From assembly GCF_001886615.1 (NCBI RefSeq), contig NZ_CP018139.1:3162001-3226000 (forward strand): a DNA stretch of 64,000 nucleotides, in the 5' to 3' direction. The translations under genes and the position numbers were made by a program. The notes beneath the pieces are model-generated. The model was not told where the DNA came from. It did no database searches and worked only from the letters and a program-made list of their open reading frames with translations. This document shows positions 1 through 26,810 of this stretch, piece by piece. Source of the DNA: Halomonas aestuarii (GTDB lineage: Bacteria; Pseudomonadota; Gammaproteobacteria; Pseudomonadales; Halomonadaceae). The stretch's first letter is position 1. Every line of letters starts with the position of its first letter.

Positions 1-571
1 AGGCCTCGTACAGTGCCACCTGGCTGGGGTCCATCGCGCGAAAGCGCAGGCCCTCGAAGTCGCTGGGGGAGGAGATGGGCTTCTCGTCGTTGGTGAAGGC
101 AAGGAAGCCGCCTTCCTCGACCACGGCCAGCAGCTCCACGCCGGTGCGCTCCCGCAGGGCATCCTCGACGGCCTGCCAGTAGTGGCCTTCATCGAAGAAG
201 GTACGCGCCGATTCGAAATCATCGAAGAGGAAGGGGATGGCGCTCACGAACACCTCCGGCACCAGAGGTGACATGCCGGCGAAGGAGGCGATGTTCAGGC
301 TGGGGGTGTTCATCGTCTGTTCCATCCGCTCCTGCTCCTCCCCCAGCATGCTGTTGGGATAGAGCTTGAGCTCGATCTCGCCTTCGGTCTTCTCCTCGAC
401 CAGCTCCTTGAGGTTGGTGGCGAAGACGTGCACGGCATTCTTGTCGGGATCCGGCGCGCCGTTGTAGCTCAGGTTCACGGTGGTGGCGGCTTGCGCCTGG
501 CTGGCCAGGGCACCCGCGGCCAGCACGGCGGCAGCGAGGGAGGAAACGGCAAAGGATCGAGTGGGGTTCAT
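1..571 (-). CDS. TRAP transporter substrate-binding protein (DctP family), 3' end outside the window
   Basis: Periplasmic solute-binding subunit of a tripartite ATP-independent transporter, which captures a carboxylate-type substrate for the membrane permease. The start at 571 follows a GGAG ribosome site. The first ~28 residues form a signal peptide (MNPTRSFAVSSLAAAVLAAG, ending near SQAQA). The mature part has DctP-like stretches: a conserved YPNSMLGEE region near residue 72 and FEGLRFRAM near residue 175. About 190 residues are visible of the roughly 330 usual for the family. The LysR gene directly upstream on the same strand is a plausible regulator. The substrate cannot be told from the sequence. 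Confidence 0.85.
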   Translation of the reverse strand, partial: MNPTRSFAVSSLAAAVLAAGALASQAQAATTVNLSYNGAPDPDKNAVHVFATNLKELVEEKTEGEIELKLYPNSMLGEEQERMEQTMNTPSLNIASFAGMSPLVPEVFVSAIPFLFDDFESARTFFDEGHYWQAVEDALRERTGVELLAVVEEGGFLAFTNDEKPISSPSDFEGLRFRAMDPSQVALYEA

Positions 572-11589: not shown

Positions 11590-11660
<71 letters not shown>

Positions 11661-17466: not shown

Positions 17467-17666
17467 GGAGAGGGAGACGGTTCGACGTCGAGGCCCAGGC
17501 GAGCCTGCCGGTCGCAGCGGTCGCAGGTGACCCTGGCCAGGTCGTGGTCGAGGGCTTCGATGGTGAACTCCTGCCAGTCGTTGGCCCGGGCGATCTCGAT
17601 GGTGCCGCAGGCGCAGGACAGGATGCGCCGGCCCTGCGGGTCGAGGTCGAGCGTGATGGGTCGCAT
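17451..17666 (-). CDS. Small protein with CxC and CxxC pairs
   Basis: A 71-residue protein with no family I recognise. Two cysteine pairs (SCACGT near residue 18 and TCDRCDRQ near residue 47) are spaced like a zinc-ribbon. The start at 17666 is preceded by GGGAGGG, a strong ribosome site; a longer reading frame from 17732 lacks one. It overlaps the 3' end of the MBL nuclease gene on the opposite strand by 16 bases. The good ribosome site and the ordered Cys pairs argue that it is real. Confidence 0.6.
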   Translation of the reverse strand: MRPITLDLDPQGRRILSCACGTIEIARANDWQEFTIEALDHDLARVTCDRCDRQARLGLDVEPSPSPQPTW

Positions 17667-17776
17667 GGGAAATCCCTCCCCGGATTGTCCCGATGGTACG
17701 TCAGGGCGACGCTCCAACCCGTGCGAGAACACGGCGATGGGGCGTAAGCGATAACGTCGGTTTGACTCACGCGGGC

Positions 17777-19834
17777 CTAGTCCCAGCTGTTGTCGTAGTC
17801 CTCCCAGTAGCGGCCGAGGTCGCGTTCCTCGGTGAGGTCGTAGAGCTGATAGCGACGATTGAGGCGGGCGCCGCCGTCGCGGGTGAGGGGCTGCCAGGCG
17901 ATGCTGGCGCGGCTGCGGCTGGAGCGCACGAAGAAGGCGTCCATGGGGATGGAGAGGTAGAGCGCCTTGTCGAAGCTGCCTTCGCCGAATTTGTCGCCGG
18001 CATCGGTGAAGGTGGCCCAGGCGCCCACGCGCACGCCGTTGTCGAATTCCCGGGAAAGGTCCAGGGTGGTGCCGATATCGCCGGCGAGGTAGCGCCCCAC
18101 GCTCAGCTTGGCCAGCACGTCCTCGATGCCGGTCTCCAGGTAGGCGCTGAGGTGGCCCGTCCAGACGTCATAGTCGCGCAGGCCGAACTGCTGGTCGAAC
18201 TCGCGCTGGCGCACCCAGTTGAGGTCCGCGCCCAGGGCCAGCGGGCTGTTGAAGGGGCGGAAGAGCAGCTCGCCCCCCGCGCCGGCATACATCATCTCCA
18301 GCAGGCCGCCGTAGCCCATGGCGTACCAGTCGTCGCCGAGCTGGGCGGTGCGGGTGTACTGCAGGTTGCCGATGCCCACGTCGGCCTCGGCCAGGTAATC
18401 GCCGATGTAGGTACGCACCCGCGGCAGGTCGGAATTGGCGATGTAGTCGTAGTCGTCGAGGTTGTCGGCCAGCGTGGCGGTCAGGCTGCCGGAGAACCAG
18501 CCATTCGGGTCGGTCGCGTATTCCGCGGACGCATGGGCCGAGAGGCGATAGAGGTAGCCGTCCGGGCCACCGAAGTTCTGCTCGATGGCGGGGCCGACCT
18601 GCCAGCTGAAGCGTTGCGGATCGGCCTGGTAGAGCAGCTCTCCGCCGGGCTCGTCCAGGCTGGCGTGGGCATAGAGGCCGTAACGGTGATCGTGCTGCCG
18701 CTCGCTGGAAGCCGCCGCCGCGGTGAAGGCCGCACGGTCATGGACGTCCTCGCGCAGGTCCATGCCGCGGCTCTGCCAGCGGTAGCGGAAGGTCTCCACG
18801 GAATCGTCGGCATTGGCCTCGAGGATCCGTCCGGCCCGTGCCTCGCTCTTCGCCAGGTTGCGGAAGGTGGTGGGCTCGCCGGTCACCGTCAGGTCGTCAC
18901 CCTGCTGGCGGATCTCGCGTACGCGGATGCCGGCGTTGGCCTGCAGGCGGCTCGCCACTGCGGGCCAGTTCTGTTCCGGCGCGGCATCCAGCGGGCGGGG
19001 AGGCGGGTCGCGCTTCACCTGGGCGAGCCCCGCCAGGTTGGTGGAGAAGCTCACCCCGGCCATGGCGGTGTTGCCTCGCTGCCAGCCGGTGCGCAGCTCG
19101 ATGTTGTCGGTGAGCCGGAAGCGGGCCCCCAGGTTGATGCGCGAGTCCTGGACCTGGTCGTTGTCCAGGGGCTCGTTGGCGTAGTCATTGCCCTCGACTT
19201 CCAACTGCAGCACCAGGGGCTCCCAGGGGGTCTGGTACTCCACGCCGCCGAAGATCGCCATGGGGCCTCGGAACAGCTGGCTCAGAGCGAATTCGCCGCC
19301 CTGGTCGCCGCCGGCATCCTCCGGGCGGTTGTCGAAGCGATGGTCCAGCCAGCCCAGCGGGGAGTCCACGTCCGCCGCGTTGCCTAGGTAGCCCCAGCCG
19401 AGTCCCAGGGTAAAGTCCAGGTCGTACCAGCGCTTGCTGGCCACCAGGTATTCGGCGCCGAACTGAGTTGTGCCGCCCCCGTCCCTCAACCCGACGGCTA
19501 GTTCCGGCCAATAGCGGCTCTCTTCCCGCAGGCGCAGCTTGGCGTCGATGCCCTTGTCGAGGTAGTCACGATCCCCCGCGATGCTGGGTCCGAACAGGCG
19601 GTTCTCCACCGAGACATAGCGAAAGCCCGCCTCCAGCCAGTCGGTGGGCTGCACGAATACCGAGTAGCGGCGATAGGGCGCGGTGCGGCTCCAGTTGACC
19701 GAGAAGTGACCGAGCTCACCCATGCGGGCAGTCGGGGTCTGCATCAGGCCGACGCCACCGAAGTCGCTCTGGCCACGGCCCAGGCGCACTGAATCGCCAT
19801 CTGCCAGGGCGGGGACTGCAGCTACAAGGCTCAA
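17777..19834 (-). CDS. yjbH: YjbH/GfcD-type outer-membrane exopolysaccharide protein, 5' end shifted out of frame by heptamer repeats
   Basis: Large predicted outer-membrane beta-barrel of the yjbEFGH (gfcABCD) exopolysaccharide operon. The start of the mature protein (QSDFGGVGLMQTPTARMGEL) is the YjbH hallmark, followed by alternating beta-strand sequence and a C-terminal aromatic residue pair. As written the frame opens only at a TTG (19834), giving 685 residues with a signal-peptide fragment (SLVAAVPALA) but no basic n-region. An ATG at 19922 overlaps the yjbG stop (ATGA) but is one base out of frame with this gene because of three 7-base repeats at 19836-19856. Removing one repeat joins the frames and restores a full signal peptide. 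The gene may therefore be in an OFF state. Confidence 0.8.
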   Translation of the reverse strand: MSLVAAVPALADGDSVRLGRGQSDFGGVGLMQTPTARMGELGHFSVNWSRTAPYRRYSVFVQPTDWLEAGFRYVSVENRLFGPSIAGDRDYLDKGIDAKLRLREESRYWPELAVGLRDGGGTTQFGAEYLVASKRWYDLDFTLGLGWGYLGNAADVDSPLGWLDHRFDNRPEDAGGDQGGEFALSQLFRGPMAIFGGVEYQTPWEPLVLQLEVEGNDYANEPLDNDQVQDSRINLGARFRLTDNIELRTGWQRGNTAMAGVSFSTNLAGLAQVKRDPPPRPLDAAPEQNWPAVASRLQANAGIRVREIRQQGDDLTVTGEPTTFRNLAKSEARAGRILEANADDSVETFRYRWQSRGMDLREDVHDRAAFTAAAASSERQHDHRYGLYAHASLDEPGGELLYQADPQRFSWQVGPAIEQNFGGPDGYLYRLSAHASAEYATDPNGWFSGSLTATLADNLDDYDYIANSDLPRVRTYIGDYLAEADVGIGNLQYTRTAQLGDDWYAMGYGGLLEMMYAGAGGELLFRPFNSPLALGADLNWVRQREFDQQFGLRDYDVWTGHLSAYLETGIEDVLAKLSVGRYLAGDIGTTLDLSREFDNGVRVGAWATFTDAGDKFGEGSFDKALYLSIPMDAFFVRSSRSRASIAWQPLTRDGGARLNRRYQLYDLTEERDLGRYWEDYDNSWD

Positions 19835-19835
19835 G

Positions 19836-19891
19836 CTACAAGCTACAAGCTACAAGCTTCGGCAGCTTGCAGCTTGCGGCTTGCGGCTTGC
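19836..19891 (-). repeat. Heptanucleotide repeat arrays at the yjbH start
   Basis: On the minus strand, four GCAAGC(C/T) heptamers (19864-19891) are followed by three exact CTTGTAG heptamers (19836-19856). The two arrays are partly inverted copies of each other, so the region can also fold as a hairpin. Seven is not a multiple of three, so each gain or loss of a unit changes the reading frame between the ATG at 19922 and the yjbH body. Confidence 0.9.
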
Positions 19892-19918
19892 GCCTTAAAT
19901 GTTTGAATTCCTTGCTAA

Positions 19919-20728
19919 TCATTCCCCGGCCTCGTGCCTCTGCATCCCCTCGGCTCCTTTCGCCTTCCAGAGCATGCAGTCATCGCCGGGCAGGCGGGTG
20001 GCGAGCCAGGCGGCAAGCTTGCGGTTGATCAGGTCGCCTTCGCGGGTGCCGCCGAGGCCTCGCTCGGGCAGCTGGACGACGATGCGGGCGCCGGGGGCCA
20101 GGGGGGCGTTCTGGTGGTTCCAGGCGGCGATACCCCTTTCGTGCCGTTCACCCTGGGGCGTGATTACCACAGCGGTGTCGATGCCTCGGGTGGCGCCGGC
20201 GGGCAGGGCGGCCAGGGCCGTATCCAGCCTCATCCCGGGCTGCCACGCCAGGCGCTCGACCCCGTTCCGCGTCCAGGCCTCGATCCAGGCCGGCGGCGCA
20301 CAGGTGCCCAGCAGGGTGATATTGGCCATCGCGGGATTGCGGCGCAGATCACTGGCGAGGGCTGGCAGGCCCAGCGCTTCCGGTGAGCGGGCGGGCAGGG
20401 CGTCGTGCTCTGCCAGCGCCAGCGCCAGCGCCTGCGCCCAGGCCGCCAGGCCGCGGGCGCTCTGGCGGTCGCCACGGGCCGTTACCACCGCCGCCAGCCC
20501 CTCCAGTTCGGCGACCAGGCGTGCCTGACGAGCGTCAAGATCGGCGGCATCGTTGGCGCGCAGCGCATAGCTGTAGGCCCAGTCGAAGGGCGGCTGGTCA
20601 CGGGCCTGGTTCTCTTCCTGCCAGGCCAGCCAGGCCTCCACCAGGGTGGGCGGCGCCGTGGCGGGCTGGGCCTCAGCCACAAGGGGAAGCATGGCCAGCA
20701 GGGCGGCCAGTAACGTGGTTCTGTGCAT
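19919..20728 (-). CDS. yjbG: YjbG/GfcC-family capsule/exopolysaccharide periplasmic protein
   Basis: A 269-residue protein with a signal peptide (MHRTTLLAALLAMLPLVAEA) and the GfcC-type body: an early LARNDAADLDARQARL-like region, LLGTCAPPAW, and two ubiquitin-like domains expected for the family. GfcC/YjbG acts in the periplasm in group 4 capsule or exopolysaccharide secretion. I chose the ATG at 20728; a start at 20776 would place 16 unlikely residues before the signal peptide. It lies 20 bases after yjbF, and its stop codon overlaps the natural ATG of yjbH (ATGA). Confidence 0.82.
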   Translation of the reverse strand: MHRTTLLAALLAMLPLVAEAQPATAPPTLVEAWLAWQEENQARDQPPFDWAYSYALRANDAADLDARQARLVAELEGLAAVVTARGDRQSARGLAAWAQALALALAEHDALPARSPEALGLPALASDLRRNPAMANITLLGTCAPPAWIEAWTRNGVERLAWQPGMRLDTALAALPAGATRGIDTAVVITPQGERHERGIAAWNHQNAPLAPGARIVVQLPERGLGGTREGDLINRKLAAWLATRLPGDDCMLWKAKGAEGMQRHEAGE

Positions 20729-20748
20729 GGGAAAGGGTGCCTTGCGAA

Positions 20749-21441
20749 CTACCACCAGTGACGAGCGACCTGCCACTGCATTGTTGGGGCGCCGGGCCAG
20801 GGCGTCTCACGCACCGCCCAGAGGTGGCGGCTGACCGGATCACGCCAGAAAATGGATCTGGTCGTCTCGCCATTGGCCCAGGCCAGGGTCGCCTCGCAGC
20901 GTTCCAGAGACCGGCTGCCTAGGGGGAGATCGACCGTATCGGTAGCGTTACAGCGCATCTCGGCGCGCGCCTCACCTTGCCGTAACTGCGCCTCACGATC
21001 ACGCCAGTGGCGCACCAGCGAATAGGAGTAGGGGGTATCCTGGCGCCAGGGCCGGCTGGATCCATACTGGGTCTGACCATGCCGGGCCGCGCTGTAGCGG
21101 GTGCCGAGCAGGTCCTCCGGCAGGCCGGCAGTGGCATGCAGGCCACCATCGTGCAACTCGAGCACACCACCGCTTCGCGAGGGCCAGTAGCTGATGCTTC
21201 CCGCCTGGGCGCCCATCACCAGCAGCCCCTGCACGTCGCCCAGTCGCGCCGAGAGCGTGGCATGGGGGATCGAGGCGGCCCGTTCATCGACGCGATCGTT
21301 TGCCGGCATGAGCGCCTGGAATGACGCCCCCAACGGGGTGGCGCCCGAGCTGGCGCAGCCGGCCAGGAGCAGCGGCAGCAGGCACGACAAGACCGCCCGA
21401 AGGCGGCCTTGAGTCATGCCTGTGGCGTACCGTCGTTGCAT
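20749..21441 (-). CDS. yjbF: YjbF/GfcB-family lipoprotein
   Basis: Outer-membrane lipoprotein of the yjbEFGH operon, 230 residues from the first ATG. The lipobox is LLLAGC (Cys29 from this start). The body has the family's beta-rich repeats with DLLGTRYSAARHGQTQYG and the C-terminal FWRDPVSRHLWAVRETPWPG. The ATG at 21441 lies two bases after the yjbE stop, which suggests translational coupling; ATG 21417 would give a shorter, equally good signal peptide. Neither has a clear ribosome site. Confidence 0.82.
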   Translation of the reverse strand: MQRRYATGMTQGRLRAVLSCLLPLLLAGCASSGATPLGASFQALMPANDRVDERAASIPHATLSARLGDVQGLLVMGAQAGSISYWPSRSGGVLELHDGGLHATAGLPEDLLGTRYSAARHGQTQYGSSRPWRQDTPYSYSLVRHWRDREAQLRQGEARAEMRCNATDTVDLPLGSRSLERCEATLAWANGETTRSIFWRDPVSRHLWAVRETPWPGAPTMQWQVARHWW

Positions 21442-21443
21442 GA

Positions 21444-21797
21444 TCAGTTGGTACCGGTGGTTCCCGTGGTGCCGGAGCCGCCGCCGTCATCACCGCCACC
21501 GACGGCGCTGACCCCGACCCCCACGGCCACGGCACCGGCGACGGCCAGGCCGGTCAGCGCCGCGGTGGAAAGCCCGGTGGCGGCGGCCAGGCCGGCCAGG
21601 CCGCCGGAGGTGGCGGCACCGCCAGCAGCAACGCCGGTTGCCGACGCCGCGCCCGCCCCGGCGCCCGCACTGGCTCCAGCGCCTGCGCCCGCACCGGATC
21701 CGGCACCCGCGGCGGCGCCGGTTTCCGACTGGGCCATGGCCAGCGGAGATGCCAGCATCCCGGCAATGGCGATCAAAGCAGCAACTTTCTTGAACAT
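21444..21797 (-). CDS. yjbE: YjbE/GfcA-like small secreted Gly/Ala/Thr-rich protein
   Basis: A 117-residue protein with a clear signal peptide (MFKKVAALIAIAGMLASPLA, cleavage near AMA/Q). The mature part is almost entirely Gly, Ala, Ser and Thr, with a hydrophobic stretch (AGAVAVGVGVSAVGGG) and a Gly-Thr tail. YjbE/GfcA proteins have this composition and open the operon. The function is not established; a surface or secreted role tied to polysaccharide export is the usual inference. A strong AAGGGAG ribosome site precedes the ATG. It is divergent from wza. Confidence 0.78.
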   Translation of the reverse strand: MFKKVAALIAIAGMLASPLAMAQSETGAAAGAGSGAGAGAGASAGAGAGAASATGVAAGGAATSGGLAGLAAATGLSTAALTGLAVAGAVAVGVGVSAVGGGDDGGGSGTTGTTGTN

Positions 21798-22183
21798 CCT
21801 GTTTCTCCCTTGCGTTGCGTACGGCAGCTAATACGATTGGCTGCCCACCCTAATGCTTCGGCAGAGTCCATGTTAGGCCCTGAGGATGAGGATGTCTTGG
21901 TGGTAAATCGAAAAAACCATTATCTGCCAAGGGCGTACGAGGCTGCCGACGGTGCTTGTAAGAGATATCGTACAAAGAGTCTTTATCACCTCGATACGGT
22001 AGAAATACCCGACTGACATATGTAAAGTTCTGGCCCTTTCAAGATCGTTTTTTCAATACCGACAGGCACTTGCATGTTGTTGCATGTTGTCAAACAGCGA
22101 CAGGCCTCGGGGATGCGCCATGACACCTCGGGGCGGTAGCGTGTTCGAACGCCCGAGTTTCCCCATTGAACAGGCATCTCCCT
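21798..22183. other. yjbE-wza divergent regulatory region
   Basis: These 386 bases have no convincing gene. They hold the promoters of yjbEFGH (leftward) and wza (rightward), an AT-rich centre, two tandem TTGCATGTTG copies at about 22072-22091 and the ops element described separately. I could not assign -35/-10 boxes with confidence. Confidence 0.5.
22132..22143 (+). promoter_or_regulatory. ops element (RfaH recruitment site) before wza1
   Basis: GGCGGTAGCGTG matches the operon-polarity-suppressor core of JUMPstart sequences that pauses RNA polymerase and loads RfaH. It ends 40 bases before the wza start. The wza ribosome site is weak, which fits RfaH-assisted ribosome loading. Confidence 0.88.
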
Positions 22184-23314
22184 ATGCACCATTCAAAGCC
22201 CATCAAGCTGCTGCTGGCACTGAGTGGTGCCATCCTGTTGTCCGGTTGCGCCTTCGCACCGGGCAGCCATTTCTCATCCCGCACCGAAAGCGCCCCCGTC
22301 GATGATCTCGTCGATATCGAGCCGATCACCCTGGGCCTGATCAATGCCCAGCGCCCGGCGGCAGGCGCCGATCGACTCGAGACCCTCAGCGAGGAGCAGC
22401 GAGCCGCGATCGAGGGCTACGACTATCGTATCGGCAAGGGCGACATCCTTAGCATCATCGTCTACGACCATCCCGAGCTGACGATCCCCTCCGGCAGCGA
22501 GCGCAGCGCCGAGGAGGCCGGCAATACCGTCCATCAGGACGGCACCATCTGCTATCCCTTCATCGGGCGCCTCGAGGTGGCCGGGCGAACCGTCAAGGAG
22601 GTCCGCGACGAACTTGCGCGGCGCCTCGAGCCCTATATCGCCGCGCCTCAGGTAGAGGTGAAGGTCGCCGCCTTCAACTCGCAGGAGGTGCAGGTCACCG
22701 GCGAGGTCAATGAACCTTCTCGTCTGCCGGTCACCAATGTGCCGATGACCGTGATGGATGCCATCAGCCTGACTGGCGGGCTCGGGCCGCAGGCCAACTG
22801 GCATGACGTGATCCTTCTGCGCTACGGAGAGAGGCGCGTCCTGTCGCTCTATGACATGCTCAACGAGGGCGAACTCAGCCAGGACCTGCTGCTGCGCGAC
22901 GGCGACGTCCTGCATGTGCCGGACCTCGGCAGCCAGAAAATCTTCGTGATGGGCGAGGTAGGTGAGCCCCAGGTCCTTCCGATGGGCCGCTCGCCCATGA
23001 GCCTCACCGAGGCGCTCACTCGCTCCGGCAGCTTCAACGAAGCCCAGGCCGACGCCAGCGGTATCTTCGTGTTTCGCCGCCACCAGAAGCGCAGTGACAA
23101 GCTGGTGACCGTCTATCAGCTGGACGCTCGCAACGCCGCCGCCATGGTGCTGGGCACCGAGTTCCGGCTCGAGCCCACCGATGTCGTCTACGTCATCACC
23201 ACACCGCTGGGCCGCTGGAACCGCGTGATCGGCCAGCTGCTGCCGACGGTGACCGCGGTTTATCAGGTGACCCGCGCGGCGAATGATGCTAACGACCTGC
23301 GGAATGACTTCTGA
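22184..23314 (+). CDS. wza: Wza-type outer-membrane polysaccharide export lipoprotein (first copy)
   Basis: Octameric outer-membrane channel for capsule or exopolysaccharide. 376 residues, close to E. coli Wza (379). It has a lipoprotein signal (LLLALSGAILLSGC), a poly-export domain beginning YRIGKGDILSIIVYDHPELT near residue 85, SLBB-like domains (VQVTGEVNEPSRLPVTNVP, IFVMGEVGEPQ) and the C-terminal amphipathic helix that lines the pore. I chose ATG 22184; the frame extends to a TTG at 22166 without added conservation. The stop overlaps the wzb ATG (TGATG). Confidence 0.95.
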   Translation: MHHSKPIKLLLALSGAILLSGCAFAPGSHFSSRTESAPVDDLVDIEPITLGLINAQRPAAGADRLETLSEEQRAAIEGYDYRIGKGDILSIIVYDHPELTIPSGSERSAEEAGNTVHQDGTICYPFIGRLEVAGRTVKEVRDELARRLEPYIAAPQVEVKVAAFNSQEVQVTGEVNEPSRLPVTNVPMTVMDAISLTGGLGPQANWHDVILLRYGERRVLSLYDMLNEGELSQDLLLRDGDVLHVPDLGSQKIFVMGEVGEPQVLPMGRSPMSLTEALTRSGSFNEAQADASGIFVFRRHQKRSDKLVTVYQLDARNAAAMVLGTEFRLEPTDVVYVITTPLGRWNRVIGQLLPTVTAVYQVTRAANDANDLRNDF

Positions 23315-23754
23315 TGTTCCAGCACATTCTGGTGGTCTGCACCGGCAACATCTGCCGCAGCCCGGTGGCCGCCGCCATGCTGGCCAGGAACTTGCCCGAC
23401 AGGCGGGTCGAATCCGCCGGGTTGGGCGCCCTGGTCGGCCACGGCGTCGAGCCCACCGCCCGCGAACTCGCCGAGGCCGACGGCCTGGACCTGTCCGACC
23501 ACCATGCCCGCCAGCTGACCGGCAAGATGCTGACCGAGGCCGACCTGGTCCTGGTGATGAGCGAAGGCCAGCGCCACGCCGTCGCCGACCTCGCCCCCGA
23601 GGCACTTGGCAAGACCATGCTGCTCGGCAAATGGCTTGATGATGGCCGAGGACGCGAGATCCCGGATCCTTACCGAAAGAGCCGCCAGGCGTTCGAGCAT
23701 GTGCATGAGCTGTTGAAGGAAGCCACAGCAGCCTGGGCGAAGAAGCTGTCGTAG
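23314..23754 (+). CDS. wzb: Low-molecular-weight protein tyrosine phosphatase (Wzb)
   Basis: Cytoplasmic phosphatase that dephosphorylates the Wzc tyrosine tail and so allows polymer assembly to cycle. The 146-residue protein carries the P-loop CTGNICRSP (Cys9, Arg15) and the general-acid loop DPYRKS near residue 116. It overlaps wza by one base. The stop codon directly abuts a CAAGCTAC-type repeat. It is the only phosphatase of this type in the window and would have to serve both Wzc kinases. Confidence 0.95.
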   Translation: MFQHILVVCTGNICRSPVAAAMLARNLPDRRVESAGLGALVGHGVEPTARELAEADGLDLSDHHARQLTGKMLTEADLVLVMSEGQRHAVADLAPEALGKTMLLGKWLDDGRGREIPDPYRKSRQAFEHVHELLKEATAAWAKKLS

Positions 23755-23755
23755 C

Positions 23756-23828
23756 TACAAGTGGCAAGCTACAAGCTGCAAGGAACCCCAAAGGGCGAAC
23801 TGCGAGGGGCGAGGGGCGAGGGGCGAGG
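23756..23828 (+). repeat. Heptad repeat block downstream of wzb
   Basis: The first part (23756-23792: GCTACAAG, CAAGCTACAAGCTGCAAGG) belongs to the same CAAGCTA family found at the yjbH start and is nearly the inverted copy of 24243-24275. It is followed by three exact GAGGGGC heptamers (23804-23824). Confidence 0.8.
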
Positions 23829-23848
23829 AATCGCGATGAGGTAGCGTC

Positions 23849-24190
23849 ATGCAATTCGAGGATCTCCAGGTCTGGAAGCGGTCCGCTCGGCTATGTGCCG
23901 ATGTCTACATCCAGCTCAAGAGCTGCCGCGACTTCGGCTTCAAGGACCAGATAACGCGTTCTGCCTTGTCAATTGCCAGCAATATCGCCGAAGGCTATGA
24001 GCGAGAGAGCGAAAAGGATCGAGTCAGGTTCTTGAGTTATTCGAAGGGCTCGTGTGGCGAACTGAGAACGCAAATCTATATCGGCATCGAGATCGGCTAC
24101 ATAAGCAAGCCACTGGGTCATAAGTGGGCTCAGGAAACCCTTGAAATCTCCAAGATGCTGCACGGCCTGATGGCCTCCTTCCGTCGCTAG
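23849..24190 (+). CDS. Four-helix-bundle protein (S23 / 23S-rRNA-intervening-sequence family)
   Basis: A 113-residue helical protein matching the bS23-like four-helix-bundle family: FEDLQVWKRSARL at the start, FGFKDQITRSALSIASNIAEGYER in the middle and a C-terminal EISKMLHGLMASF helix. Members occur inside 23S rRNA intervening sequences and also, as here, in polysaccharide loci; their role is unknown. It has a GAGGT ribosome site. It sits between wzb and wzc, which are normally adjacent, and is bracketed by inverted heptad repeats, so it looks like an inserted cassette. Confidence 0.88.
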   Translation: MQFEDLQVWKRSARLCADVYIQLKSCRDFGFKDQITRSALSIASNIAEGYERESEKDRVRFLSYSKGSCGELRTQIYIGIEIGYISKPLGHKWAQETLEISKMLHGLMASFRR

Positions 24191-24242
24191 TCACGCCCGC
24201 AACATATTCTTCACTATTCATCAACATATTGGACGCTGGGTT

Positions 24243-24275
24243 TCCTTGCAGCTTGCTCCTTGTAGCTTGTAGCTG
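24243..24275 (-). repeat. Inverted copy of the CAAGCTA-family repeat upstream of wzc
   Basis: Contains CCTTGCAGCTTG and CCTTGTAGCTTGTAGC. Read on the minus strand it is close to the block after wzb, so the two form inverted repeats around the four-helix-bundle gene. Confidence 0.75.
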
Positions 24276-24304
24276 AACCACACGGCCCGGAGAACTCACC
24301 CCAG

Positions 24305-26500
24305 ATGTCAGACTCGCATATCCCTGGAACGAAACCACCTGCAGTGGCAGATGATGAAATCGACCTCGGCCGCCTCTTCGGCCTGCTGATCGACCACAAG
24401 TGGTGGATCATCGGCATCACCACGCTGTTTGCCGTGATCGGGGTGGCCTATGCCCTGCTGGCTACGCCGGACTACCGGGCGGATGCGCTGGTGCAGGTGG
24501 AAGAGAAGGCCGGGATGAGCAACCCGCTGGAAGACGTGCGGGCCATGCTGGGCGAGGAGCCGAGCACCGATGCACAGCTGGGCATCCTGCGCTCGCGGAT
24601 GGTGCTCGGCCGCGCCGTGGACCATGAGCGGCTCGACCTGGTGGTCGAGCCGACCCGCTTACCGGTCGTCGGCGACCTGCTGGTTCGCCTGGGCGTCGAG
24701 CGGCCAGACTTCGCCGAGAGCAGCGTCTGGGCCGGTGAGACGCTCAACATCGGGCAGTTCCAGGTCGACTCGCCGCTGACCGGCAGGGCCTTCACGCTGA
24801 CGGCTGGGGAAGGGGGATATTACAGCCTCTCCCTGGAAGGGCAGTCCATTGGGGAAGGCGAAGTCGGCAAGGACAGTACCTTCCTGGATGGCCAGGTCAC
24901 CTTGCGGGTGGCCGAGATCATGGCGGCGCCGGGCGCCGAATTCACCCTGATCAAGCGCTCTCGCCTGGCCGCCATCAATGACCTGCGCTCACGGTTCAGC
25001 GTCAGCCAGCAGGGCAGCGACAGCGGCCTGCTGGACCTGGACCTGACCGATGCGAAGCCCGAGCGCGCCGCACGGGTGCTGGATGCCATCAGTGAGATCT
25101 ACCTGACCCAGAACATCCAGCGCCAGAGCGCCGAGGCCGAGCAGAGCCTGGACTTCCTGGTGGGCCAGGAACCTGAGATCCGCGAACAGCTACGTGAGGC
25201 CGAGAATGCCCTTAATGCCTACCGCACCGAGCGGGATAGCGTGGACCTCTCCCTGGAGACCCAGTCGATCCTTAAGCGACTGGTCGACCTCGAGGCGCAG
25301 CTCAACGAACTGGAGTTCACCGAGGCGGAGATCTCCCGGCGCTTTTCCCCGGAGCATCCGACCTACTCGGCCCTGCTGGACAAGAAGCAGCAGCTGGTCC
25401 AGGAGCGAGAGCGGCTGAACGAGCGCATCGAGAACCTGCCGGAGACCCAGCAGCAGGTGCTGCGCCGCACCCGTGACGTGGAGCTCAACCAGGAGATCTA
25501 CCTGCAGTTGCGCAACAAGATCCAGGAGATGAAGATTGCCAAGGCCAGCACCGTGGGCAATGTGCGTATCCTTGACGAGGCCGTGGTGCAGCCCAACCCG
25601 GTGGAGCCCAAGAAGCCGCTGATCGTGGTGCTGGCGACCCTGATGGGCGGCATGCTCTCGGTGGGCATCGTGCTCGTGCGCGGCCTGCTGCGCCACGGGG
25701 TGGAGTCACCCGAACAGGTCGAGGAGGCCGGCCTTCCTGTCTATGCCAGCGTGCCGCTCTCCGACGAGCAGCATAAGCTGGTCAAGCGGGTGAAACACCG
25801 CCGTGAGCGCCATGGCCATGACGTGGTGAGCGGCATCCTGGCCGAGAGGGCGCCGGCCGATACCTCCATCGAGGCGCTACGCGGCCTTCGCACCAGCCTG
25901 CACTTCGCCATGCTGGAGGCCGGCGACAATCGTCTGATGATCACCGGGCCGAGCCCCGGGATCGGCAAGAGCTTCGTGTCAGCCAACCTGGCGGCCGTCT
26001 GCGCCCAGGGCGGCCAGAGGGTGCTGATGGTGGACGCCGACATGCGCAAGGGGCATCTCCACCATGCCTTCCAGGGCGGCAGCGAGTGCGGGCTCTCGGA
26101 TCTGCTTTCCGGCAAGGCGAAATGGGCAGCAGTGGTGCGCGACAGCGGCATCGAGAACCTGAGCTACGTGGCGCGCGGCACGGCACCGCCCAACCCCGCC
26201 GAGCTGCTGATGAATGCAGACTTCACGGCCTTCCTCGAACAGGCCAGCCGAGAGTTCGACCTGGTGATCGTCGACACCCCGCCGGTGCTGGCCGTGACCG
26301 ATGCCGCCCTGGTCGGCAAGCATTGCGGCACGAGCCTCATGGTTGTCCGCTTCCAGCTGAACCCGGCCAAGGAGCTGCAGATCGCCGCCCGCCGCCTCGA
26401 GACCGCCGGTGTCACGGTCAAGGGGGCCATCCTCAATGCCGTGGAGCGCAAGGCTGCGACCCGCTACGGCTATGGGTACTACAATTATGCCTACCGGTAG
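24305..26500 (+). CDS. wzc: Wzc-type polysaccharide co-polymerase / BY tyrosine kinase (first copy)
   Basis: Inner-membrane tyrosine autokinase controlling chain length and export through Wza. In 731 residues (E. coli 720): N-terminal Wzz domain with a membrane segment near residues 36-56, a periplasmic coiled-coil region (~270-410), a second membrane segment near 440-460 (LIVVLATLMGGMLSVGIVLV), and the kinase domain with Walker A GPSPGIGKS (~546), Walker A' LMVDADMRKG (~574) and Walker B LVIVDTPPVL (~653). The C-terminal tail RYGYGYYNYAYR is the tyrosine cluster that is phosphorylated and cleaned by Wzb. Confidence 0.96.
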   Translation: MSDSHIPGTKPPAVADDEIDLGRLFGLLIDHKWWIIGITTLFAVIGVAYALLATPDYRADALVQVEEKAGMSNPLEDVRAMLGEEPSTDAQLGILRSRMVLGRAVDHERLDLVVEPTRLPVVGDLLVRLGVERPDFAESSVWAGETLNIGQFQVDSPLTGRAFTLTAGEGGYYSLSLEGQSIGEGEVGKDSTFLDGQVTLRVAEIMAAPGAEFTLIKRSRLAAINDLRSRFSVSQQGSDSGLLDLDLTDAKPERAARVLDAISEIYLTQNIQRQSAEAEQSLDFLVGQEPEIREQLREAENALNAYRTERDSVDLSLETQSILKRLVDLEAQLNELEFTEAEISRRFSPEHPTYSALLDKKQQLVQERERLNERIENLPETQQQVLRRTRDVELNQEIYLQLRNKIQEMKIAKASTVGNVRILDEAVVQPNPVEPKKPLIVVLATLMGGMLSVGIVLVRGLLRHGVESPEQVEEAGLPVYASVPLSDEQHKLVKRVKHRRERHGHDVVSGILAERAPADTSIEALRGLRTSLHFAMLEAGDNRLMITGPSPGIGKSFVSANLAAVCAQGGQRVLMVDADMRKGHLHHAFQGGSECGLSDLLSGKAKWAAVVRDSGIENLSYVARGTAPPNPAELLMNADFTAFLEQASREFDLVIVDTPPVLAVTDAALVGKHCGTSLMVVRFQLNPAKELQIAARRLETAGVTVKGAILNAVERKAATRYGYGYYNYAYR

Positions 26501-26810
26501 CGACGGGCATCTTCTGTGCCTGCGGGCACGCTACACAAGCTGATCTGCGACCTGCCCCACGAATAATGCCGTAACTACGCCGTCTTCCCGTGGAGACAGG
26601 TCTCCTTGCCAGTCACGTCCTCACCGCCCTGCTGGCCAACGGCACGGTAGAGTCGGCACCCGCGCTGACGTACAATCCCTTCTCCGTGAACAAGACGTTG
26701 CCGACCCCATGGGGCCTGGCAAGACAAGGACTGAAGGGTTCGAGGACATGCCCGGAGCGACCTCCGGGCGGTAGCGTGCCCGTGACCTGGCAGAAGGTAA
26801 TTCCAAGATA
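26501..26810 (+). other. Leader region before the wzz-like gene
   Basis: These 310 bases have no gene I can support. They begin with a weak hairpin (GTGCC/GGCAC near 26517) after the wzc stop and end with an ops element, so a new RfaH-dependent transcript probably starts here. No clear -35/-10 pair was recognised. Confidence 0.5.
26767..26778 (+). promoter_or_regulatory. ops element before the wzz-like gene
   Basis: GGCGGTAGCGTG, identical over 12 bases to the sites before wza1 and wza2. It ends 32 bases before the start codon and would place the long downstream glycan operon under RfaH-type antitermination. Confidence 0.88.

Follow-up and report, generated by a model that had tools for sequence, protein, structure and literature searches.

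An inverted heptamer hairpin at the start of yjbH in Halomonas aestuarii: a closed reading frame, a probable OFF state and a possible slow switch

The window analyzed here is a stretch of 64,000 nucleotides (nt) of Halomonas aestuarii (contig NZ_CP018139.1, positions 3,162,001 to 3,226,000), taken from a single-contig genome of 3.54 Mb of a Halomonas-type halophile, whose genus, judged by its relatives, is Halomonas. Our subject is the 5' end of yjbH, which belongs to a polysaccharide export cluster with yjbEFGH on the minus strand and wza, wzb, a gene of the S23/IVP family and wzc on the plus strand. Its product is a member of the YjbH/GfcD family, with the PF06082 domain covering residues 22-669, i.e. 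most of the protein (E 2.9e-224). The best-supported reading is that yjbH is probably functionally OFF as sequenced, an OFF phenotype predicted from the reading frames: an array of CTTGTAG heptamers lies between the presumed start codon and the mature part of the protein and closes every frame, while in related species comparable repeats are read through in frame.

Reading frames and hairpin at the yjbG/yjbH junction

By its anatomy the natural start of yjbH appears to be the ATG at 19922-19920 of the window (minus strand), which overlaps the yjbG stop codon as ATGA and has a GAGG located 7 nt upstream. An earlier, sequence-only reading of this DNA had followed the frame of this coupled start for 28 codons to a TAG at 19838-19836, and had seen nothing but a TTG at 19834 as a start available to yjbH. 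These positions and the short frame proved correct, and the frame of yjbH itself indeed holds no start other than this TTG before the mature part. The TAG and the TTG are separated by one base (TAG-C-TTG). Mature YjbH probably starts at about 19801, with DGDS after AxA, the cleavage site being judged by eye.

Two heptamer arrays, both detected by Tandem Repeats Finder (TRF), occupy the junction. The left one consists of two GCAAGCC units followed by two GCAAGCT units, and the right one of three CTTGTAG units, one CTTGAGC and one further CTTGTAG. The first three TAGs stand at offsets of 70, 77 and 84 from the ATG, which by coordinate arithmetic is 1, 2 and 0 modulo 3, so all three reading frames are closed and, given three perfect CTTGTAG units, any ribosome from upstream is expected to stop. 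The distance from ATG 19922 to TTG 19834 is 88 nt and becomes 81 nt with one unit fewer; the arithmetic upholds the earlier claim that the frame so joined is free of stops. It likewise agrees that two is the ON copy number, as n = 2 alone is both in frame and stop-free, and n = 5 or 8 are in frame yet meet the third TAG. Changes in the left array, again by the coordinates, would be of no help while the right array keeps three units.

The two arrays are at the same time the arms of one symmetric RNA hairpin (19825-19897) with 31 pairs, a 5-nt loop and no bulge, which the sequence-only reading did not contain. For the stretch of 121 nt the folding energy is -53.3 kcal/mol (z -3.6), and none of 200 shuffles was as stable. 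A chance origin of the junction array was rejected on its period-7 score of 25, the highest values in 20 simulated sequences of 64 kb (Markov-1) being 7-11; maxima per period over the whole window (57-66) are useless here because a run of 69 C dominates every period.

Repeats as signal-peptide codons in Halomonas relatives

In Halomonas, repeats are concentrated at the yjbG/yjbH junction: by fixed criteria a heptamer, octamer or palindrome was found at 14 of 49 junctions and in 2 of 147 control windows of the same loci. These counts are raw. By eye two of the 14 positives are false (urmiana, where the array lies in yjbG codons, and lactosivorans, with a partial palindrome) and H. daqiaonensis is a false negative (score 7, long stem), and labels on the tree below were corrected for this. 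The 49 rows were hand-picked from the loci available, one YjbH locus each, with a few outgroups (Salinicola, Litchfieldella, Thioalkalivibrio and MFB021). The YjbH-bearing genomes of the genus number 50, and left out were split copies (G032, G061), a fragment (G076), the metagenome-assembled genome (MAG) G097, second copies and some further genomes.

An in-frame ATG, or in G091 only a GTG, precedes mature YjbH in 48 of the 49 junctions and the window alone has neither; the search picks the first ATG of the open frame, possibly not the true start. Read-through in frame is seen with heptamers of the CTTTCTA type (H. ventosae and H. alimentaria), CTTTTCA-like heptamers (H. daqiaonensis) and the CTTGTCC type (strain SSL-5 and G002), and also with an octamer array of about eight GGGTCAAG units between yjbG and yjbH in G004 (L007). 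Palindromes of the GGGGTCAGACCCC type are read through in H. getboli, H. beimenensis, H. smyrnensis, G067 and G007, and in altered form in G091. The same kinds of signal peptide occur in protein records, e.g. P0002, P0015, P0019 and P0029. G097 (L064, MAG M30B70), with CTTGTAG-type units and an ATG frame that by eye ends early, was considered as a second closed case and rejected, as its yjbH is in pieces.

Among side observations, at the yjbH starts of L003, L004, L136, L137 and L009 the palindromes are signal-peptide codons (GVRP..GLTP), and peptides of this type are also present in records P0019, P0022, P0026, P0029 and P0039. Four public YjbH records (P0008, P0033, P0035 and P0049) have their first residue within the signal peptide or past it; some of them may be further closed-frame cases and others start-site misannotations, which is what P0033 looks like.

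In the YjbH tree with midpoint root, repeat-bearing rows are confined to one half (27 of 49 rows) and the heptamer label requires at least three changes. The YjbH nearest to that of the window is from H. ventosae (91% over 662 columns). Three different units are carried by the starred group of three that unites the window with H. ventosae and H. daqiaonensis, so units turn over quickly.

Why heptamers can serve as signal-peptide codons follows in part from their length. Seven is 1 modulo 3, so all three frames of a heptamer array give one and the same cyclic heptapeptide. When all 16384 heptamers are compared (stops ignored), the cyclic peptide of a unit and that of its reverse complement are anticorrelated in hydropathy (r -0.58), and for this reason a basic stretch followed by a hydrophobic one tends to be encoded where the purine arm of a hairpin comes first. 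In hydropathy CTTGTAG (stop left out) is at the 99th percentile, CTTGTTC at the 96th, CTTTCTA and CTTGTCC at the 89th, CTTTTCA at the 83rd and CTTTCCA at the 69th. Their reverse complements give more hydrophilic peptides with a net charge of +1 or +2, and two contain a stop. Typical units at the flanks of IVP genes are less hydrophobic (CTTCCAG 64th percentile, GGCGCTC 46th), which limits the tendency to a subset of heptamers. We propose that the 5' end of yjbH lies in a hairpin of inverted heptamers like those around S23/IVP genes, and that in Halomonas such hairpins, and the unrelated GGGGTCAGACCCC palindromes, have probably been recruited repeatedly as YjbH signal-peptide codons, with the basic n-region coming from the purine arm and the hydrophobic core from the pyrimidine arm.

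Heptamer arrays at S23/IVP genes and the export cluster

The S23/IVP gene of the cluster lies 4 kb from yjbH (PF05635, E 4.9e-33; TIGR02436; one solved relative, 2gsc) and belongs to a protein family without known function (PMC4990558). The unit of the yjbH array also flanks this gene, with arms inverted (Table 1). The yjbH hairpin thus has the inverted heptamer arms of S23/IVP hairpins; a PF05635 open reading frame (ORF) between the arms is present in the element at 23753-24275 and lacking at yjbH, where the loop is 5 nt long.

Table 1. Features of the yjb/wz export cluster and its heptamer arrays (positions in the window)
Feature	Position	Strand	Remark
yjbH (PF06082)	17777..19834	-	685 codons from TTG 19834; Pfam E 2.9e-224
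Right hairpin arm, CTTGTAG x3 plus CTTGAGC	19825..19858	-	closes three frames
28-codon frame (MISKEFKHLRRKPQAASCKLPKLVACSL)	19836..19922	-	coupled ATG to TAG 19838-19836 inside right array
Left hairpin arm, GCAAGCY units	19864..19897	-	basic stretch encoded in ATG frame
yjbG (GfcC_C, PF06251)	19919..20776	-	stop overlaps ATG 19922
yjbF (PF11102)	20749..21441	-	ORF list and Pfam
yjbE-like small protein	21444..21797	-	no Pfam match; name from position alone
wza-type polysaccharide export protein	22166..23314	+	Pfam
wzb-type low molecular weight tyrosine phosphatase	23314..23754	+	Pfam
Heptamer arm AGCTACA.. upstream of IVP gene	23753..23783	+	reverse complement of yjbH-array unit; TRF
GCGAGGG array directly before IVP gene	23802..23828	+	TRF
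S23/IVP four-helix-bundle gene (PF05635, TIGR02436)	23849..24190	+	between wzb and wzc
Inverted arm ..CTTGTAGCTTGTAGCT downstream of IVP gene	24243..24275	+	TRF
wzc-type tyrosine kinase	24305..26500	+	Pfam

PF05635 was present in 41 of 90 genomes of the genus, 57 of 274 of the class and 52 of 299 of the phylum. Period-7 arrays (score 10 or more) stood within 250 bp of the IVP match at 24 of 30 genus, 18 of 23 class and 21 of 26 phylum loci, 63 of 79 in total, against 1, 1 and 0 (2/79) in control windows 750-1250 bp from the match. Other periods from 4 to 12 were absent from these flanks, except period 8 (6/30 genus) and period 12 (2/23 class). The two flanks of a locus matched in inverted orientation at 53 of 78 loci and directly at 7 of 78, compared with 0 of 78 for far controls, and flanks of different IVP loci gave an inverted match in 12 of 180 pairs; this inverted-flank test is also without L128. 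The units differ between genomes. The loci are the best-scoring ones (30 of 55 genus matches), 6 of 29 new class loci and 4 of 30 new phylum loci were dropped for short flanks, and they are not independent since close relatives are included, e.g. L181/L184/L188, L157/L159 and L197/L198. Between the window and G004 the IVP proteins are 88% identical and the YjbH proteins only 69%, which suggests that the IVP gene was transferred.

A search for heptamer sites in the H. aestuarii genome gave eight matches, four of them within this cluster, versus none for the control. At sites near 760 kb (L096, about 1494-1605) and 1682 kb (L099, about 1496-1610) heptamer-like arms flank, by eye, intrinsic-terminator-like hairpins just past gene ends, and a site near 1081 kb is inside a long ORF. 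No promoter- or terminator-like match was found in 19700-22200 and no Rfam match in 17500-26600. Elsewhere in the window, at 11591-11659, the run of 69 C is followed by CA and CT repeats and is either a real homopolymer or an assembly artefact.

In Coxiella, two or three heptamers precede the S23p gene of an rRNA intervening sequence in different strains (PMC4990558), and this was the only paper on S23/IVP genes with heptamers in the part of the literature searched. It is a speculative and on balance unlikely idea that throughout Pseudomonadota S23/IVP genes belong together with inverted heptamer arrays in a single genetic system, in which the gene or its RNA would make, spread or homogenize the arrays, solo hairpins would be copied elsewhere and, as yjbH signal codons in Halomonas, would toggle export through a change of unit. 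If the proposed yjbH switch is real, frame switches by heptamers on capsule genes and repeats in signal-peptide codons would be combined in an environmental halophile, and dispersed hairpin repeats would be a source of new signal peptides. The link of S23/IVP genes to inverted 7-bp arrays gives a handle on the family which is easily tested in many genomes.

Closed frame, rival explanations and known systems

Comparison with H. ventosae shows that yjbH is under purifying selection, with a ratio of nonsynonymous to synonymous substitution rates (dN/dS) of 0.17 and with 16 nonsynonymous and 42 synonymous differences on the window branch and 15 and 42 on that of H. ventosae. From this, closure of the frame is either young, or reversible, or so far without cost, and because of this selection the sequenced gene looks like a recent OFF state. 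Ribosomes from the coupled ATG 19922 would stop after 28 codons, and a restart at TTG 19834 would yield a YjbH that lacks a usable export signal. The only change in copy number that would join the frames is loss of one right-arm unit, which makes possible a slow switch of YjbH export between two and three units, whose reversibility we infer. The copy-number switch proposed by the sequence-only reading thereby stands in part: the closed frame is unique among the 49 junctions, relatives read through their repeats and the gene is under selection; reversible switching is hypothetical. As in simple sequence repeat switches, a tandem repeat lies between start codon and gene body and, by arithmetic, gain or loss of one unit decides whether the frame is full-length or truncated (two open, three closed). 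A stop-free unit with every third copy number ON is not what is found, as CTTGTAG carries TAG. By our judgement the chance that a detectable two-unit class exists in the species is about one in three, and that of adaptive phase variation of yjbH about one in eight.

Several observations weigh against such a switch and its proposed origin. With three or more CTTGTAG units all frames are closed, and a unit with its own stop is unlike an evolved coding repeat. The array has only three units, the bottom of the range of 3-53 in neuO (see below), and the arms of the hairpin are equal in unit number, so the state with three TAGs need not be the added or mutated one; low unit number, stop in the unit and symmetric arms all speak against rapid switching. 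The comparison is of one genome per species and the window strain is one isolate. Folding z across 19 junctions extends from -4.1 (window) to +1.9; the heptamer relatives, several of which are unremarkable, have values of -2.9 (G002), -1.6 (SSL-5), -0.8 (H. ventosae) and +0.1 (H. daqiaonensis and H. alimentaria), and one of eight repeat-free junctions reaches -3.6. Sharing of 9-mers between the yjbH junction and the IVP flanks of the same genome has a permutation p of 0.002 (16 genomes; one IVP locus was taken for each genome, in G022 and G002 a different copy from the one at or close to the yjb cluster), but it is carried by four genomes (window, G109, G102 and G002, with 26-52 shared), and G072, G097 and G004 share 2, 6 and 0 with their own flanks. 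The window junction shares 34 9-mers with the flanks of G004 and 26 with its own, and p is 0.05 when the seven junctions bearing a 7- or 8-mer array are taken by themselves, or 0.017 if MAG G097 is left out of these.

The alternatives below overlap with the OFF reading, so that the likelihoods given to them need not sum to one. It is possible, although doubtful, that the array has put a lasting end to export of YjbH in this strain, with the gene at the beginning of decay and no switching. Three units slip rarely in known systems, one copy number only is ON and the closed state has no second example among the junctions, all of which would fit such a loss; the window branch carries no nonsynonymous excess relative to H. 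ventosae, however, and the cluster proteins align over nearly their whole length with their H. ventosae counterparts. Normal expression and export as sequenced, through restart at the TTG or an unrecognized start, we consider improbable: stop and TTG are one base apart and the gene is under selection, but the TTG product would have 11 residues before the likely cleavage site and no basic n-region, no Shine-Dalgarno sequence is seen by eye at TTG 19834, and at the other 48 junctions an in-frame ATG or GTG provides a longer signal sequence. Very improbable, too, is that the hairpin acts at the level of the mRNA, between yjbG and yjbH, as an element for RNase III or for the coupling of translation, with the codon frame of minor importance. 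Its stem of 31 pairs, the inverted arms at S23/IVP genes and the cutting of a 23S rRNA intervening sequence of such kind by RNase III (PMC4990558) are in accordance with this, whereas the unremarkable folding in several heptamer relatives and the open frames kept by relatives are not. An assembly or sequencing error in the repeat number is just as improbable, since, error-prone as hairpin repeats are and with the run of 69 C in the same window, random miscounting does not favor equal arm lengths and the neighboring genes, aligned nearly full length with H. ventosae, show no frame errors.

The sequence-only reading had been aware of no report of a yjbH switch, and in the part of the literature searched we found neither phase variation of yjbH, nor heptamers in Halomonas, nor a phase-variable member of the YjbH/GfcD family (PF06082). 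A close parallel in the signal peptide is opa of Neisseria, in which CTCTT repeats within signal-peptide codons encode the hydrophobic core of an outer-membrane protein's signal peptide and set the frame. Unlike the yjbH repeat, these are pentamers in many units with proven switching and are not known to be part of an inverted hairpin. GfcD itself has been modelled as an exporter of lipid-anchored polysaccharide (PMC11494523).

In neuO of the E. coli K1 prophage CUS-3, phase variation is through the heptanucleotide AAGACTC, with 3 to 53 units in 64 genomes (PMC13001214). Like yjbH it is a capsule-related gene whose 5' end carries tandem units of 7 bp and whose frame is set by their copy number; in contrast, neuO is ON when the unit number divides by 3 and its variation was measured in colonies (PMC13001214), while yjbH has three units, a stop in the unit and one ON state, and is known here from one sequence. 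Heptameric repeats of Xanthomonas and Nostoc are likewise short arrays over-represented between genes, but they are G-rich, mostly intergenic and judged by their authors unlikely to cause phase variation (PMC4692102, whose text has none of the terms four-helix, intervening and Halomonas). Intervening sequences of 23S rRNA with an S23p/IVP ORF, e.g. in Coxiella, share the inverted arms, with heptamers beside S23p (PMC4990558). They are situated in rRNA genes, while the yjbH hairpin is nested in a protein gene and has no ORF between its arms.

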